Source: a virus. From it: 25,257 bases of DNA. Position 1 is the first letter of the stretch; each line of letters begins with the position of its first letter. Below, one piece after another: positions 4,911 through 10,427 of the stretch. The stretch spans positions 1 through 25,257 of IMG/VR virus record IMGVR_UViG_3300028027_000222, one strand, 5' to 3'. The notes beneath the pieces were generated by a model. It did no database searches, was not told the origin of the DNA, and worked only from the letters and a program-made list of their open reading frames with translations. The translations under genes were made by a program, and so were the position numbers.

Positions 4911-6112
4911 TGTCATCAGTTATAAGATTACGAAGAGGAACATCTGCTCAATGGGCTACATCTACTTTAGTTTTAGCTCCTGCTGAATTAGGGTTAGATA
5001 CAACATTAAATAAGCTAAAAGTTGGTAACGGTTTATACACTTGGCCGAATCTTCCTTTTATAAATGTACTTCCTTCTGAACTTGCTGAGCTATCTCAAGA
5101 TGCAATAAATAGTGCATTAGTAGTAGGCCTACATCTTACAAAAACATACGATGATGCTGCAAATACAATTACAATTGCTTCTACTCTTACAAATGTAGAT
5201 AATACATCTGATGCAAATAAACCAATTTCTACTGCTACTGCATCAGCACTAGCACTTAAAGCACCATTAGCAAGCCCTTCTTTAACTGGAATTCCAACCG
5301 CTCCAACCGCCTTATCTTCAGTAAATACAACACAGATTGCAACTACAGAGTTTGTTCAAACAGCTATATCTAGTCTTGTAAATTCTGCACCTGAAGCCCT
5401 TAATACTTTAAAAGAATTATCAGATGCACTAGGTGCTGATTCAAATTATGCAACTACAATATCTACTGCTTTAGGGTTAAAAGCTCCATTAGCATCACCA
5501 ACTTTTAGCGGAACAGTATCTCTACCAGGAACAACTTCTATAGGAGATGTTTCAAGTACAGAAATATCATATTTAAATAATGTTACTAGTGCCATTCAAA
5601 CACAAATAGATCTTAAGGCTCCATTATTAAGTCCAACTTTTACTGGGACAGTAACTGGCATTACAAAAACAATGGTTGGTTTAGGAAATGTTGATAATAC
5701 TTCAGATCTAGATAAGCCAGTATCATCTGCAGCATCACTTTTGCTTGGACAGCTTCAAACATCATTAACAGACGGACTTGCAGCTAAAGTTGATAAAGCA
5801 ACTATTCCATCTTTAAAGTCTGATACTGCATATACAATTAACAATCAAACAGACAGATACAATAGACTTGAGTTTGATGCTTCAACACCAATAACTGTTA
5901 CTATTCCTACAAATTTAAATGATCCTTGGCCAGTTGGGTCTAGCTGTGAAATCATGCAGGCTGGAACTGGGAAAATTACTGTAGTTGGGCAATCTGGTGT
6001 AACTCTAAATGCACCAGACAATCAATTTAAAACTAGAGTACAGTGGAGCACACTTATTCTTGAAAAAAGAAGCCAAAATAGTTGGCTAGTATCTGGAGAC
6101 TCTGATCTATAA
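4910..6112 (+). CDS. Tail fibre protein with RRGT-type N-terminal domain
   Basis: 400 residues. The N-terminal 50 residues (RLRRGTSAQWATS, ELGLDTTLNKLKVGNGLYTW) match the small beta domain that opens many phage fibre and tropism-determinant proteins. Next is an SQDAIN..LTKTYDDAANTITI stalk module (about 62-90). Repeats follow: NVDNTSDANKP (about 95-105) and NVDNTSDLDKP, KAPLASP..TGT, and SIGDVSSTEISYLNNVTSAI. A NSAPEALNTLKELSDALGA helix-like segment is shared with the 986-residue fibre downstream. Residues about 305-400 form a tip (NRLEFDASTPITVTIP, CEIMQAGTGKITVVG, ILEKRSQNSWLVSGD) found in many phage tail proteins. One-base overlaps on both sides suggest coupled translation of 4656, 4910 and 6112. 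Confidence 0.8.
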   Translation: MSSVIRLRRGTSAQWATSTLVLAPAELGLDTTLNKLKVGNGLYTWPNLPFINVLPSELAELSQDAINSALVVGLHLTKTYDDAANTITIASTLTNVDNTSDANKPISTATASALALKAPLASPSLTGIPTAPTALSSVNTTQIATTEFVQTAISSLVNSAPEALNTLKELSDALGADSNYATTISTALGLKAPLASPTFSGTVSLPGTTSIGDVSSTEISYLNNVTSAIQTQIDLKAPLLSPTFTGTVTGITKTMVGLGNVDNTSDLDKPVSSAASLLLGQLQTSLTDGLAAKVDKATIPSLKSDTAYTINNQTDRYNRLEFDASTPITVTIPTNLNDPWPVGSSCEIMQAGTGKITVVGQSGVTLNAPDNQFKTRVQWSTLILEKRSQNSWLVSGDSDL

Positions 6113-7461
6113 TGGGACTATCAAGAAAAAAAAGAAATATAGTATCTTCAAGATTAAAAGCTTTTGTTTTTTTTCAAGATAGCTTTAATAATTATTTTAA
6201 GGGCGGATGGAAGTTTAGAAGAGGAGAGTGGGTAGCTCAATCTGCTACCGCAAGTACAGCATATAGCTCATCCCTTTATCCAATGGCTTCAGTTCCAATG
6301 AAAGATCCAAATGTAACTATTTCTATTAAAAACCCAGGAATTGGATCAGGTGCTGCACTGTGGGTAACAGATGAAGGCAACTGGTATGGACTAGTTTCAT
6401 CACAAACATTAAGTCCAGGATCTGGTGCATGTTTATCAGTAAACCCATATAATCCTTGTGGTGCAACAAATGGTTGCGAAGGAACTGGAGGAAACTGTTA
6501 TGGAAGTGGCGGTTGTTCAGGTACTGGAGGCAACTGCGTTGCAACTGGTGGAAATTCTGCTGGATGGCAACAACAATGTGTAGCAACAAATCCAAGTTGT
6601 AATACAGAATATGCAAACTGTGTGGCAACTGGTGGAAACTGTAATCAGGGTGGGTTTAATTGCAATACTAGTGGTGGAAATTGCAATACTGGTGGTGGAA
6701 ATTGCATTGCTAGCGGTGGAAATTGCAGAACACAGGGTTGGTGCGGAATTCCATTTGCTGCAAGCTATTGGTGCTGTAATGCCTATAATGCTTATAATCC
6801 ATGCTCTAGCCGTAACCCATATAACCCATGCGTAAGCAGAAATCCGTATAACCCATGCGTAAACATAAATCCATACTACTACTGCGGAAGTATAAATCCG
6901 TATAACCCCTGCGGATATACAAACCCATATAACCCATGCGTAAATGTTAATAGCTATGATCCATGTGGATATACTATGTTTGTAGAACAATTTAACCCAG
7001 TAAATCCTTGTGGTTCAGCAAATCCATATAACCCTTGTGGATCTGTAAATCCATATAACCCATGTGCTGGAGTAAACCCATATAATCCATGTGGCGCAGG
7101 AGGAAACTGTGCTGGAACTGGAGGATCTTGTAGCTCTTATGCAACTACATATCCAAGATATTTGAGATTAATTAAATTTACATCAAATGTGGCAACAGCC
7201 GTATATACTTTTACACTAGATGCAGTAACAAGCTACGTTCAAATGAAAGGTCTAAAAATTCAAATATCAAATGCCACTAGAGGTGGGACTACGGCTACAA
7301 TAACCGCTAAAGCTTACTCAGATACAGCCATGGTGACCCAAATTGGAAGCGACTTGATATATAACGCAACAGGTGTTAATATTGTAGCTAACTACGGAAT
7401 AGTTGTTTCTCCAAGCAGCTATAACGAAAACAATTCCCTTGGAGAAATTACAATATCGTGA
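6112..7461 (+). CDS. Cysteine-rich repeat adhesin with a split lectin-like domain
   Basis: 449 residues. Residues about 20-98 (DSFNNYFKGGWKFRRGEW to AALWVTDEGNWYGLVSS) resemble a LamG/concanavalin-like sandwich. Residues about 345-449 (YPRYLRLIKFTSNVATAVYT to a C-terminal GIVVSPSSYNENNSLGEITI) look like the rest of that sandwich or a second domain. Between them lies a 234-residue insert (C107 to C340) with 30 cysteines, while the flanks have none. The insert holds GGNCxxx repeats (7-residue period, residues 126-205) and NPYNPCxxx repeats (9-residue period, residues 226-327), with WCC between. No signal peptide or catalytic motif is seen. Position and size suggest a virion adhesin. The cysteines could form disulfides after release or bind metal; both ideas are inference. 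The ATG overlaps the upstream stop by one base. Confidence 0.75.
   Translation: MGLSRKKRNIVSSRLKAFVFFQDSFNNYFKGGWKFRRGEWVAQSATASTAYSSSLYPMASVPMKDPNVTISIKNPGIGSGAALWVTDEGNWYGLVSSQTLSPGSGACLSVNPYNPCGATNGCEGTGGNCYGSGGCSGTGGNCVATGGNSAGWQQQCVATNPSCNTEYANCVATGGNCNQGGFNCNTSGGNCNTGGGNCIASGGNCRTQGWCGIPFAASYWCCNAYNAYNPCSSRNPYNPCVSRNPYNPCVNINPYYYCGSINPYNPCGYTNPYNPCVNVNSYDPCGYTMFVEQFNPVNPCGSANPYNPCGSVNPYNPCAGVNPYNPCGAGGNCAGTGGSCSSYATTYPRYLRLIKFTSNVATAVYTFTLDAVTSYVQMKGLKIQISNATRGGTTATITAKAYSDTAMVTQIGSDLIYNATGVNIVANYGIVVSPSSYNENNSLGEITIS
6487..6726 (+). repeat. Coding repeats of GGNC type, about 7 residues per unit
   Basis: Residues 126-205 of the 6112 gene. Exact GGNC occurs six times here (C129, then five more up to C205), with degenerate copies GGC, GGNS and GFNC between. 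The clearest regular run is SGGNCNT, GGGNCIA, SGGNCRT (about 6670-6732), a 7-residue period. A seventh GGNC lies later, just before C340. Confidence 0.8.
6787..7092 (+). repeat. Coding repeats of NPYNPC type, 9 residues per unit
   Basis: Residues 226-327 of the 6112 gene. Seven exact NPYNPC copies plus four variants (NAYNPC, NPYYYC, NSYDPC, NPVNPC) occur here; an eighth exact copy lies at 6442-6459. Most are spaced 9 residues apart with three variable residues after the Cys. Among the eight exact copies there are seven different codon spellings (AAC/AAT, CCA/CCG/CCT/CCC, TGC/TGT). The protein motif is therefore kept while the DNA drifts. Confidence 0.85.
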
Positions 7462-7471
7462 GGAGTACATT

Positions 7472-7690
7472 ATGACAAATAACATTCCAGCCTGGGAAAG
7501 AGTGTCGCCAGGAGATCCCGCACCAACGGTAAACTTTGCATTAATTTTAGATGGTATAGTCCAGCAAGTTATGTCTACAAATACATCAACAGCATCTCTT
7601 TTATTAGAGAATCCAAAAATTATAAGATGCAAGTATGAGGCTGAAGTCGGAATGACTGAGGCCGAAGCCGCATTTGTTCAGCCATCCTAA
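7472..7690 (+). CDS. Small phage protein, 'LDG' family, first of two paralogs
   Basis: 72 residues. Start placed at ATG 7472 because AGGAG at 7461-7465 lies 6 bp upstream; an in-frame upstream extension would overlap the adhesin without a ribosome site. The core FALILDGIVQQVMSTNTSTA then SLLLENPKIIRCKYEAEVG aligns with SIAIVLDNEVQDIIRTEERL then WAMLMSNPVIVDITDN in the 8381 protein. Both have an LD(G/N)xV strand, a helix with polar start, and (E/S)NPxI. From memory, similar short proteins sit beside fibre genes in aquatic myoviruses. Function is unknown. The gene forms the first half of a duplicated two-gene unit with 7707. Confidence 0.7.
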   Translation: MTNNIPAWERVSPGDPAPTVNFALILDGIVQQVMSTNTSTASLLLENPKIIRCKYEAEVGMTEAEAAFVQPS

Positions 7691-7706: not shown

Positions 7707-8384
7707 TTGAAAATAATAAAGTTTATTCCGTTCGGCGGAAGGAAAAACCTTATGCCTCCATCTGTGTCAAAAATACCACAATGGTGGAAAGATGGGGAAA
7801 CTGTAATATCGTCTGGCACTCCAGGAATCAAAGCATGTGTTCCATTTATGGAAATAATGAAATCTGGATATACAATAAATTTACCATTTGATATATTCGT
7901 TTCTAAAAATGAAGATGGCACAACTAATTTAAAATGGAATGCTCCAAAAGAAGCTGGATGGCCAACCTTTATTGAAGAAAGACCACCAGACCTTGGGGCT
8001 ACAATTCCAAGACCAGCTGGACATCTTCCAAATGGATTTGTATGGTCATCACAATGGTCGTGGAAAACCCCAAAAGGATATAGTGTTATAGTAACTCATC
8101 CATTTAATAGATTTGATTTACCATTCACTACAGTATCTGGAACAATTGATTCAGATAAATTTCAAGGTAACGGCAACATACCATTTTTTATAAAAGAGGA
8201 TTTTCAGGGTGTAATTCCAGAAGGAACACCAATAGCTCAGATATTTCCTTTTAAAAGAGATAAATGGAAGTCTTGGGTTGATGACTCTGTATTAGATAGT
8301 ATATATAAGAATCAAATATCTAAATTAAGAGAGCCAGATGGATCATATAAAAAAGCATTTTGGGTAAGAAAGGTTTATGAATGA
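7707..8384 (+). CDS. Conserved phage protein, DUF6065-like superfamily, copy 1
   Basis: 225 residues from TTG 7707, with AGAG at 7697-7700 six bases upstream. An internal ATG at 7752 would remove the KIIKF segment that aligns with the paralog at 8661, so TTG is preferred. Visible in order: IPQWWK (23-28), CVPFMEIMKSGYTINLPFD (44-62), WKTPKGYSVIVTHPFNRFDL (119-138), SGTIDSD (144-150), FQGVIPEGTPIAQIFPFKRD (166-185). The last stretch resembles the dUTPase-type motif pattern (GxIDxDY, then IxxGDRIAQ), but the usual RSS/RSG motif is replaced by HPFNR and no C-terminal glycine-rich motif is present. Activity as a dUTPase is therefore doubtful. All seven Arg codons are AGA or AGG. It overlaps the next gene by 4 bp (ATGA). 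Confidence 0.75.
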   Translation: MKIIKFIPFGGRKNLMPPSVSKIPQWWKDGETVISSGTPGIKACVPFMEIMKSGYTINLPFDIFVSKNEDGTTNLKWNAPKEAGWPTFIEERPPDLGATIPRPAGHLPNGFVWSSQWSWKTPKGYSVIVTHPFNRFDLPFTTVSGTIDSDKFQGNGNIPFFIKEDFQGVIPEGTPIAQIFPFKRDKWKSWVDDSVLDSIYKNQISKLREPDGSYKKAFWVRKVYE

Positions 8385-8689
8385 TATTTAAGAGAAAAAA
8401 TAAGATTGAAAAGATAAATCCAAAAACAGATAATTTTAAACAGCCAAAGGATTATCATGAGCCTAAAAAGATATACTCAATTGCTATAGTTTTAGATAAT
8501 GAGGTACAAGACATTATTAGAACGGAAGAAAGACTTTGGGCAATGTTAATGAGCAATCCAGTAATAGTAGATATTACGGATAATGAAACAAGACCACAAT
8601 TAAACTGGGAATACAACGAAGAAACAGGAGAGTTCACAAATCCAAATGCAATTCAACCCAATGACAAAGAAGATCAAAGCTCTATCTGA
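8381..8689 (+). CDS. Small phage protein, 'LDN' family, second paralog
   Basis: 102 residues. A lysine-rich, likely flexible N terminus (residues 1-30) precedes the shared core SIAIVLDNEVQDIIRTEERL (33-52) and WAMLMSNPVIVDITDN, then an acidic tail (NWEYNEETGEFTNPN). The core is homologous by eye to the 72-residue protein at 7472. The ATG overlaps the stop of the 7707 gene (ATGA), and its own 3' end overlaps the next gene by 29 bp if that one starts at 8661. This is the second half of an apparent duplication of the small-plus-large pair. Function unknown; no membrane segment or metal motif. Confidence 0.72.
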   Translation: MIFKRKNKIEKINPKTDNFKQPKDYHEPKKIYSIAIVLDNEVQDIIRTEERLWAMLMSNPVIVDITDNETRPQLNWEYNEETGEFTNPNAIQPNDKEDQSSI

Positions 8690-9326
8690 AGATATTAGAG
8701 TAGACTGGGAAAAACCTTCCCCAGCTTCAAAAGAAATACCAGCTTGGTTTAAAAAAATTGAAGCGGTAAATGAAGAGCAGCATGATATGACAATAAAAAG
8801 ATGTATCCCCTTTTTAGATACGCTTACAACAGGGTATATGTTTAAGACTTCTGCCGATGTCATATATGACGAAGAATATAATAGATTTATTGATAATGGC
8901 GTGTCTGATATTGTAACTCACCACCCATCATTTCAAATTGAAAATATGGACCTTGATAGCAATTTACACCCAATGCCGTATAAATGGATTAATAAGTTTA
9001 TGTGGCAAACACCAAAAGGATACAGCACAATGTTCTTGCACCCATTAAACAGAACAGATCTTCCTTTTCAATCTATATCTGGAATTGTAGATACAGATGA
9101 TTTTCCACTTTCAGTACAGTTTCCATTTTTTATGAAAAAAGGATTCTCTGGGCTTATTCCAGCAGGTACACCAATTATTCAAGCAATACCATTTAAAAGA
9201 GATGATTGGGATCTTAAATTTCCAGAACAACAAGAGTCTTATGAATACGAAGGTTTTTGGAATTGGTTTCAGCCGCCAATGGCAAAGTATAAGAGACAGT
9301 TTTGGAAAAGAAAGCGTTATCAGTGA
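8661..9326 (+). CDS. Conserved phage protein, DUF6065-like superfamily, copy 2
   Basis: 221 residues from ATG 8661, chosen because MTKKIK and the distance to IPAWF (26-30) match the 7707 paralog. ATG 8646 is an alternative with AGGAGAG 13 bp upstream. Shared blocks with copy 1: CIPFLDTLTTGYMFKTSAD (48-66), WQTPKGYSTMFLHPLNRTDL (115-134), SGIVDTDDF (140-148), FPFFMKKGFSGLIPAGTPII (154-173), IPFKRDDW (176-183). The C terminus (QFWKRKRYQ) parallels AFWVRKVYE of copy 1. As in copy 1, the GxVDxD and IPxGTPIxQ blocks resemble dUTPase motifs, but the RSS-type motif is missing. A 4-bp overlap (GTGA) joins it to the next gene. Role unknown. Confidence 0.75.
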   Translation: MTKKIKALSEDIRVDWEKPSPASKEIPAWFKKIEAVNEEQHDMTIKRCIPFLDTLTTGYMFKTSADVIYDEEYNRFIDNGVSDIVTHHPSFQIENMDLDSNLHPMPYKWINKFMWQTPKGYSTMFLHPLNRTDLPFQSISGIVDTDDFPLSVQFPFFMKKGFSGLIPAGTPIIQAIPFKRDDWDLKFPEQQESYEYEGFWNWFQPPMAKYKRQFWKRKRYQ

Positions 9327-10168
9327 AAAACAATAAGACTCCATGGGATATATTTAAAGATAAAAAGATCCCAAAAGTCTCCTTTGAGGATGAAGTAAAA
9401 AAAGACTATATAAATGATGATAATTTTTTAGTTCCAGAAAATACTTTAGCTTTTTATGCAACTAAAGATACTAGACATAATTTGTCAGATGTAATAGAAA
9501 GTTTAATTGGGCACCCTAACAGAGACTGGTTTGCCGTAACTGCATTTTCCTTTTGTCTGCCACTAACAATAGCAAATCAGTATGGATTTGTTGTAAAATC
9601 AAATTGGGATATGGAAATAGTCTGGGACGGTAAACCAGAAAGCTCTCCACAAATAAAGTCAGATGGTTGGCAAAATCATGAGTCAATTCAGCCTATCATA
9701 GGAGACTTTGCAAATGGGATAATTAGCTTAGAAAATAAATTTATAGTAAGAACACCAAGAGATACAAATCTAATGATTATGCAGCCTCCAAATTACTTTA
9801 TACCAGGCTTGCACACAATGTCTGCTGTAGTTGAGGCAGATAACCTTAGAAGGAATTTTACTTTTAATATAAAGGTAACTGAGCCAAATAAAGTTATAAA
9901 TATTAAAAAGGGTGACTGGCTTGCGGCTTTTATTCCTATACCAAGATTTTATGTAGATAGCTTTGAGCTGAAGGATGCATTTAAGCTTTTTGGCGATGAG
10001 GTAATAAAAAACGAGCTAGAATCTATGCACAAGCTTGGTTGGGAAAGAAATAACCAGGACTATGATAAAATTAATGGTTCAGGAAGAAGATACTTTAAGG
10101 GTAAGCATGTAAATGACACATCTTATAGAAATCATCAGAAGAGGGCAGGGTTAAAAGATGGACAATAA
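9323..10168 (+). CDS. DUF6065-like protein, third relative in the cassette
   Basis: 281 residues from GTG 9323, which overlaps the upstream stop as GTGA; an upstream in-frame TTG at 9302 is less likely. Residues 6-21 (TPWDIFKDKKIPKVSF) resemble the start of the zinc protein at 10158. FSFCLPLTIANQYGF (75-89), WDGKP, and RTPRDTNLMIMQPPN (143-157) match what I recall of DUF6065 proteins (RxxLPLNIANxxGW, RTPPGYNL..PPN). Residues 168-206 read AVVEADNLRRNFTFNIKV then INIKKGDWLAAFIPI, parallel to the SGxxDxD..IPxGTPIxQ stretch of the two preceding proteins and to the dUTPase pattern. The C-terminal 70 residues are charged and helical. Function unknown. All Arg codons are AGA or AGG. Confidence 0.75.
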   Translation: MKNNKTPWDIFKDKKIPKVSFEDEVKKDYINDDNFLVPENTLAFYATKDTRHNLSDVIESLIGHPNRDWFAVTAFSFCLPLTIANQYGFVVKSNWDMEIVWDGKPESSPQIKSDGWQNHESIQPIIGDFANGIISLENKFIVRTPRDTNLMIMQPPNYFIPGLHTMSAVVEADNLRRNFTFNIKVTEPNKVINIKKGDWLAAFIPIPRFYVDSFELKDAFKLFGDEVIKNELESMHKLGWERNNQDYDKINGSGRRYFKGKHVNDTSYRNHQKRAGLKDGQ

Positions 10169-10427
10169 CGATATTCCTAAATGGAAAAATGTTCCAGCTA
10201 GACCGTGGGACTTATTTAACAAAAAGATAGGTAGAGTCTCTGTAGAGACAGCGGCAGAAAGATTTGATATATGTAAGGCTTGTCCAAGATATGTTAAGTC
10301 TACACATCAATGCTTGGAGTGCGGATGTATTATGAATTTAAAAGTTAAGCTGCCAAATGCAGAGTGCCCATTAGGTCATTGGGGCCAAGTTGACCTAGAA
10401 GAAGATCTAAACACAAAAGAAGAGTAG
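10158..10427 (+). CDS. Small zinc-binding protein with PWDLF N-terminal segment
   Basis: 89 residues, overlapping the upstream gene by 11 bp; AGGG at 10147-10150 lies 7 bp before the ATG. Cysteines C39, C42, C52, C55, C57 and C70 sit in ICKACP, CLECGC and AECPLGHW, a treble-clef or ribbon-like zinc site. KVKLPNAECP is the usual spacer. From memory, short proteins with this CxxCP..CxxCGCxMxxKxKL..CPxxxW layout are common in T4-like and other myoviruses, without an assigned role. N-terminal PWDLFNKKIGRVSVE parallels PWDIFKDKKIPKVSFE of the preceding protein. It could be a virion assembly or DNA/RNA-binding factor; nothing in the sequence decides. Confidence 0.8.
   Translation: MDNNDIPKWKNVPARPWDLFNKKIGRVSVETAAERFDICKACPRYVKSTHQCLECGCIMNLKVKLPNAECPLGHWGQVDLEEDLNTKEE

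Follow-up and report, generated by a model that had tools for sequence, protein, structure and literature searches.

Trimeric dUTPases (Dut, PF00692) have related viral proteins at least among the herpesviruses, in which dUTPase-related proteins (DURPs) have been multiplied by duplication and at least one has lost the dUTPase function (PMC11599850). In staphylococcal phages, trimeric dUTPases which keep the conserved motifs bind the Stl repressor (PMC4914113); a dUTPase fold encoded by a phage, and perhaps acting in regulation, is what they have in common with the family described below. The dCTP deaminases (DCD, PF22769) belong to the same dUTPase superfamily. The proteins considered here make up the family listed as DUF6065 (PF19541) and phrog_7084, to which the libraries searched assign neither fold nor function, and neither a solved structure nor an assay of any member was found in the literature and databases searched. 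As far as can be judged from predicted models, its members resemble the DURPs in being relatives of dUTPase by fold that have probably lost its catalytic function and have multiplied through duplication in viruses (PMC11599850). However, DURPs are predicted multi-domain fusions from eukaryotic viruses, while members of the present family are single-domain proteins, each with a gene of its own, and come from bacterial genomes as well as from tailed viruses that infect bacteria or archaea. By analogy, we read the family as a prokaryotic parallel to herpesvirus DURPs, which would be its closest precedent.

The window, i.e. the entire 25,257-base IMG/VR virus record that was analyzed, contains a ribonucleotide reductase gene (positions 499-2454), tail-fibre genes, three family members which we call P1, P2 and P3 (Table 1), and then further tail genes. 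The original prediction described three tandem genes with a dUTPase-like motif order in their C-terminal halves. Its three ORFs and the sequence strings quoted from them are indeed present, and the genes are paralogues residing at the same locus, but they are not strictly adjacent, as a short ORF separates P1 from P2. The genes are tightly packed, with overlaps at the P1 stop (ATGA, 8381), the P2 stop (GTGA, 9323) and the P3 end (10158), and the GTG overlapping the P2 stop is a likelier start for P3 than the listed one at 9302. A late-promoter-like motif (TATAAATA) was also considered, and its frequency in the window does not exceed that expected by chance.

Table 1. Positions of the family genes, their motif-bearing stretches and neighboring small ORFs in the window
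Feature	Position	Strand	Description
P1	7707..8384	+	225 aa, starting with TTG; member of clade A, which is the first copy in other phages as well
P2	8646..9326	+	226 aa; clade B, second copy; predicted dUTPase fold
P3	9302..10168	+	288 aa as listed; clade C, third copy; only one matching Pfam DUF6065; predicted dUTPase fold
P1 stretch TPKGYS..HPFNR..GTIDSD..GTPIAQIFPFKR	8070..8261 (approximate limits)	+	Corresponds to dUTPase motif II-IV positions
P2 stretch TPKGYS..HPLNR..GIVDTD..GTPIIQAIPFKR	9009..9200	+	N135, D149 (catalytic-base position), D151, Q179, R185
P3 stretch TPRDTN..PPNY..AVVEAD..IKKGDWLAAFIPIPR	9752..9946 (approximate limits)	+	E at catalytic-base position
72-aa small protein	7472..7690	+	ATG at 7472; directly upstream of P1; paralogue of 8381-8689 ORF
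102-aa small protein	8381..8689	+	Between P1 and P2; start overlaps P1 stop (ATGA)
89-aa cysteine-rich protein (phrog_13558)	10158..10427	+	Overlaps P3 3' end; N-terminal PWD[LI]F peptide in common with P3

All three proteins match the phrog_7084 profile (E-values of 2e-32 for P1, 5.4e-39 for P2 and 1.7e-9 for P3), and are therefore paralogues from a single family. The DUF6065-like grouping suggested earlier applies, by the Pfam model, to P3 only, which matches PF19541 at 4.5e-30 with 105.3 bits against a curated cut-off of 26.6, while P1 and P2 lie outside the Pfam model, yielding no match to it at E-values up to 10; in the alignment A5, 42 of the 64 members match DUF6065 at E-values up to 1. 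A single-sequence search of the PDB with P1 returned only chance matches, the A5 profile had no matches among PDB sequences, and searches of NCBIfam and PADLOC yielded nothing useful.

We obtained AlphaFold2 models from alignments built with the window sequences and their relatives from public contigs; all structures of the family described here are such predictions. The model of P2 has a pLDDT of 94.4 and a pTM of 0.88, and that of P3 82.6 and 0.75, respectively. In Foldseek comparisons with the PDB, the best 50 matches listed for each of the two proteins were all dUTPases with a probability of about 1.00, the best E-value being 1.7e-5 for P3 and 1.2e-3 for P2 (just above 0.001, at a probability of 1.00). 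The best 50 matches listed by VIA-align were likewise all dUTPases in both cases, with a top Z of 10.5 for P2 and 10.2 for P3, in alignments to one dUTPase that include 128 and 127 of its 129 residues at an rmsd of 4.9 and 4.7, respectively. Among viral predicted structures, uncharacterized phage proteins came first (the top one being 44% identical), followed by named dUTPases. The match spans residues 7-201 of P2 and 46-232 of P3, so that the dUTPase-like region covers almost the whole protein rather than the C-terminal half to which it had been assigned. Relative to the trimeric dUTPase fold, the predicted fold carries an insertion of ca. 45 residues before the TPxGY strand. With these models at hand, it is nearly certain that the DUF6065/phrog_7084 family has the trimeric-dUTPase (beta-clip) fold, in agreement with the original prediction; for P1, the assignment is extended by homology, on the basis of its 33% identity to P2.

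By sequence alone, the similarity to dUTPase is weak: it is sub-significant, but in register. Comparison by hhalign with a proteobacterial dUTPase profile gave a score of 21.15, ranking second out of 130 (one of the 129 decoy profiles scored higher) at a probability of 2.8%, and the alignment followed the motif register and extended further than that of any other top scorer. When 191 members of the family were scored with a dUTPase HMM alongside 1160 decoy ORFs taken from the same loci, the 12 best scores all belonged to family members, with P1 in second place and the best E-value overall at 1.1; since the ranked family sequences are not independent, no formal probability is given. PF00692 (best E-value 0.063) and DUF6065 were the only two families matched by more than one of the 64 members. 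The dUTPases used in comparisons were collected from genome sequences, with the E. coli Dut sequence as seed. A closer relationship to dCTP deaminase was unsupported, as its hhalign score of 13.2 over 28 columns provides no useful signal against a decoy mean of 12.8. The weak sequence-only signal to dUTPase would fit a fold shared without shared ancestry, in which case AlphaFold would have reproduced a common arrangement of beta strands and the order of the motifs would be a coincidence. However, the structural matches listed are exclusively dUTPases and extend over nearly the full length of two divergent members, and the sequence alignment falls on the same motif register, making such a coincidence highly improbable.

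An ordered loose pattern, P-x-G-[aromatic] ... G-x-[IV]-[DE] ... G-x-x-[IV]-x-Q, is found in 74 of the 191 family members and in none of 1917 decoy ORFs, although it was written after the family had been seen, and these counts show sharing within the family rather than a formal probability. While P1 and P2 fit the pattern, P3, which had been credited with the same motif order, does not, as its copy has diverged (TPRDTN..AVVEAD..IKKGDWLAA). The five dUTPase motifs in their strict form are virtually absent: motif I, [AS]GxD[LIV], occurs in 1/191 family members vs. 37/37 dUTPases; motif II, PRS[SG], in 0/191 vs. 36/37; motif III, Gx[IV]Dxx[YF]xG, in 0/191 vs. 37/37; motif IV, G[DEQ]R[IVL][AGC]Q, in 0/191 vs. 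28/37; and motif V, the C-terminal RGxxGFG, in 0/191 vs. 31/37. The loss is thus wider than that of the RSS and C-terminal motifs which had been proposed. In their place, 155 of the 191 members display a shortened motif III (G/A-x-[IVF]-[DE]-x-D), and 120 an Arg-less motif IV (G[TSD]x[ILVF]xQ).

When residues are matched to motifs by sequence alignment and secondary structure, 98.9% of the 191 sequences have D or E where dUTPase has its catalytic base. Four other residues, W34, C53, G63 and D151 in P2 numbering, are near-invariant at 98-100%, and N135 is present at 95%; this set (W, C, G, N, D) spans bacteria, haloviruses, cyanophages and the phage clades A, B and C described below. As to the binding or structural work for which these proteins were originally proposed to have been recruited, the retained acid and the five near-invariant residues suggest that the family maintains a conserved site and is more than a bare scaffold. 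One may go further and view the Cys, the Asp pair and the Asn as a new catalytic site on the old fold, i.e. regard the family as an active enzyme with new chemistry. The near-invariance of C53, G63 and D151, together with the acid at the base position, speaks in favor of such an enzyme, but R185, initially thought to be fully invariant, is not conserved once core bacterial members are added, and no cofactor or metal motif was recognized in the family, leaving the enzymatic interpretation rather doubtful.

In comparison with trimeric dUTPase, the family shares the predicted fold over nearly its full length, the block order TPxGY, GxVD, GxxIxQ, and the acid at the catalytic-base position, but differs in the absence of the five strict motifs, in the insertion, and in having other near-invariant residues. 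Family carriers that were tested also have a normal dUTPase: a canonical gene was found in 7/7 bacterial genomes, so that the family is unlikely to serve as the dUTPase of those bacteria. Overall, it is very probably a remodelled dUTPase-fold protein, and not a dUTPase. We also observed a 129-kb viral contig (L169/G015) carrying a canonical dUTPase gene along with two DUF6065-family genes.

Relatives of P1-P3 were found in 444 viral-contig stretches, in haloarchaeal Hafunaviridae and cyanophages, and on plasmids and in genomes of Alphaproteobacteria and some other bacteria. In a quick maximum-likelihood tree, for which support is limited to SH-aLRT and in which long branches may mislead, the phage copies cluster by gene order into clades A (first copy), B (second) and C (third, on a long branch), to which P1, P2 and P3 belong, respectively, and this clustering far exceeds that obtained with shuffled labels. 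At least two family copies lie within 2 kb of each other in 72/81 viral loci, a share biased upward by a query built from such multi-copy loci, and the copies are on one strand in all 81. The phage copies, two or three per locus, represent old clades which are co-inherited in a fixed gene order.

Genomic environments of the family differ between its carriers. In the window, P1-P3 are located on one strand between tail-fibre genes, preceded by an Mtd_N tail-fibre gene and followed by one matching a baseplate/fibre connector, and in the closest relatives of the window the family genes are likewise found among tail-fibre genes. Tail fibres are trimeric, and this placement could mean that P1-P3 are virion components, such as trimeric tail-fibre adaptors or collars, which employ the dUTPase fold as a mere C3-symmetric scaffold. 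The HF2 gene is also consistent with a virion role in that it lies close to a tail-fibre gene (the HrrHF2_490 group, described as tail-fibre-like; PMC7230728). Its location is at the edge of the tail module and near ribonucleotide reductase. In HF2 and HSTV-2, however, the family gene and the structural genes are on opposite strands; in cyanophages it is found in metabolic-gene regions; bacterial genomes harbor it as free-standing single copies; and one would not usually expect a scaffold to keep an invariant set of Cys, Asp and Asn. We therefore consider a virion function unlikely.

In HSTV-2, the family gene directly follows thymidylate synthase, and in cyanophage S-RIM4 it lies near nrdAB, with the second ribonucleotide reductase gene ending about 0.8 kb before it; across the viral loci, ribonucleotide reductase is present in 18/81. 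In rhizobia, the family gene is preceded by genes for a sigma and a likely anti-sigma factor, not by nucleotide genes. The HF2, HSTV-2, S-RIM4 and rhizobial contexts disagree on a single function, and the core bacterial neighborhoods revealed no common functional partner that would explain the family. Upstream of the DUF6065 gene, the likely anti-sigma factor, named by the look of its sequence, is seen in 58 of 80 bacterial loci (L021-L100), and on the two plasmids checked an annotated sigma factor and an S8 serine peptidase are also upstream. In L289, one of the loci L281-L291, a gene for a YbaK-like aminoacyl-tRNA editing protein adjoins the core bacterial DUF6065 gene on the other strand, and ORFs at this position have relatives in about 10 of 17 loci.

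Glycosyltransferase and methyltransferase genes are close by in many viral relatives, which would fit a regulator of host takeover or counter-defence acting through binding to a host protein, in the manner of the staphylococcal phage dUTPases acting on Stl. Phage dUTPases are indeed known as regulators (PMC4914113); the Stl-binding enzymes keep their motifs, and no Stl-like partner is known for the present family. PADLOC returned no match, which weighs little against this role as the library is composed of defence rather than counter-defence proteins; the single-copy relatives that are widespread in bacteria point to an ordinary role in the cell, and a regulatory function of this kind is improbable.

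The explanation that we favor is that of a remodelled dUTPase-fold trimer, with pockets at its interfaces accommodating a nucleotide-type ligand in the infected cell; as a whole, we would assign it a probability of roughly 50%. Points against it are the sub-significant sequence similarity to dUTPase, the tail-fibre surroundings in the window and its closest relatives, which would suit a virion role equally, and the sigma/anti-sigma neighbors of the rhizobial copies. The family would have descended from a dUTPase-like ancestor, and its members may still assemble as trimers with ligand pockets at the subunit interfaces. Within the infected cell, a ligand of nucleotide type, though not dUTP, could be bound or processed in these pockets, an intracellular setting proposed from the ribonucleotide reductase and thymidylate synthase genes near the HF2, HSTV-2 and S-RIM4 copies; for the ligand-pocket role of the family, the chances appear about evenly balanced. 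In phages, the two or three co-inherited paralogues (A, B and C) probably build mixed trimers. A more specific version, in which a mixed phage trimer would carry a new Cys/Asp/Asn site in its interfacial pockets, with a chemistry or ligand new to the fold, and the same site would operate in single-copy bacterial relatives, seems to us a long shot. Complementary loss between clades, with A losing what B keeps, was looked for in connection with mixed trimers and was not seen, as A and B keep the same set of residues.

This reading provides a predicted fold and an evolutionary origin for a family devoid of assigned function whose members come from bacterial genomes, archaeal viruses, cyanophages and phages of freshwater and other environments. 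It suggests that viruses of prokaryotes have redeployed the dUTPase fold via duplication and loss of catalytic motifs, as herpesviruses have done, and that an enzyme fold of long standing now seems to serve a new purpose. The conserved residues named above are targets for mutation, and ligand and assembly become testable questions for this unannotated family.

A few other features were observed around P1-P3. Upstream, the 449-aa product of positions 6112-7461 contains numerous NPYNPCG repeats and matches neither PHROG nor Pfam families. The two small paralogous proteins in Table 1 share an A-x-x-x-D-x-x-V-Q core, and each directly precedes a DUF6065-family gene; their family is found in 62 viral loci, and in 0 bacterial, halovirus or cyanophage loci among those searched. 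The N-termini of P3 (9323-9400) and of the next protein (10158-10240) have in common the peptide PWD[LI]F..KKI..VS, which recurs across viral loci in 43 ORFs belonging to the cysteine-rich family cluster and within glycosyltransferase fusions in two of the loci (L122 and L131).
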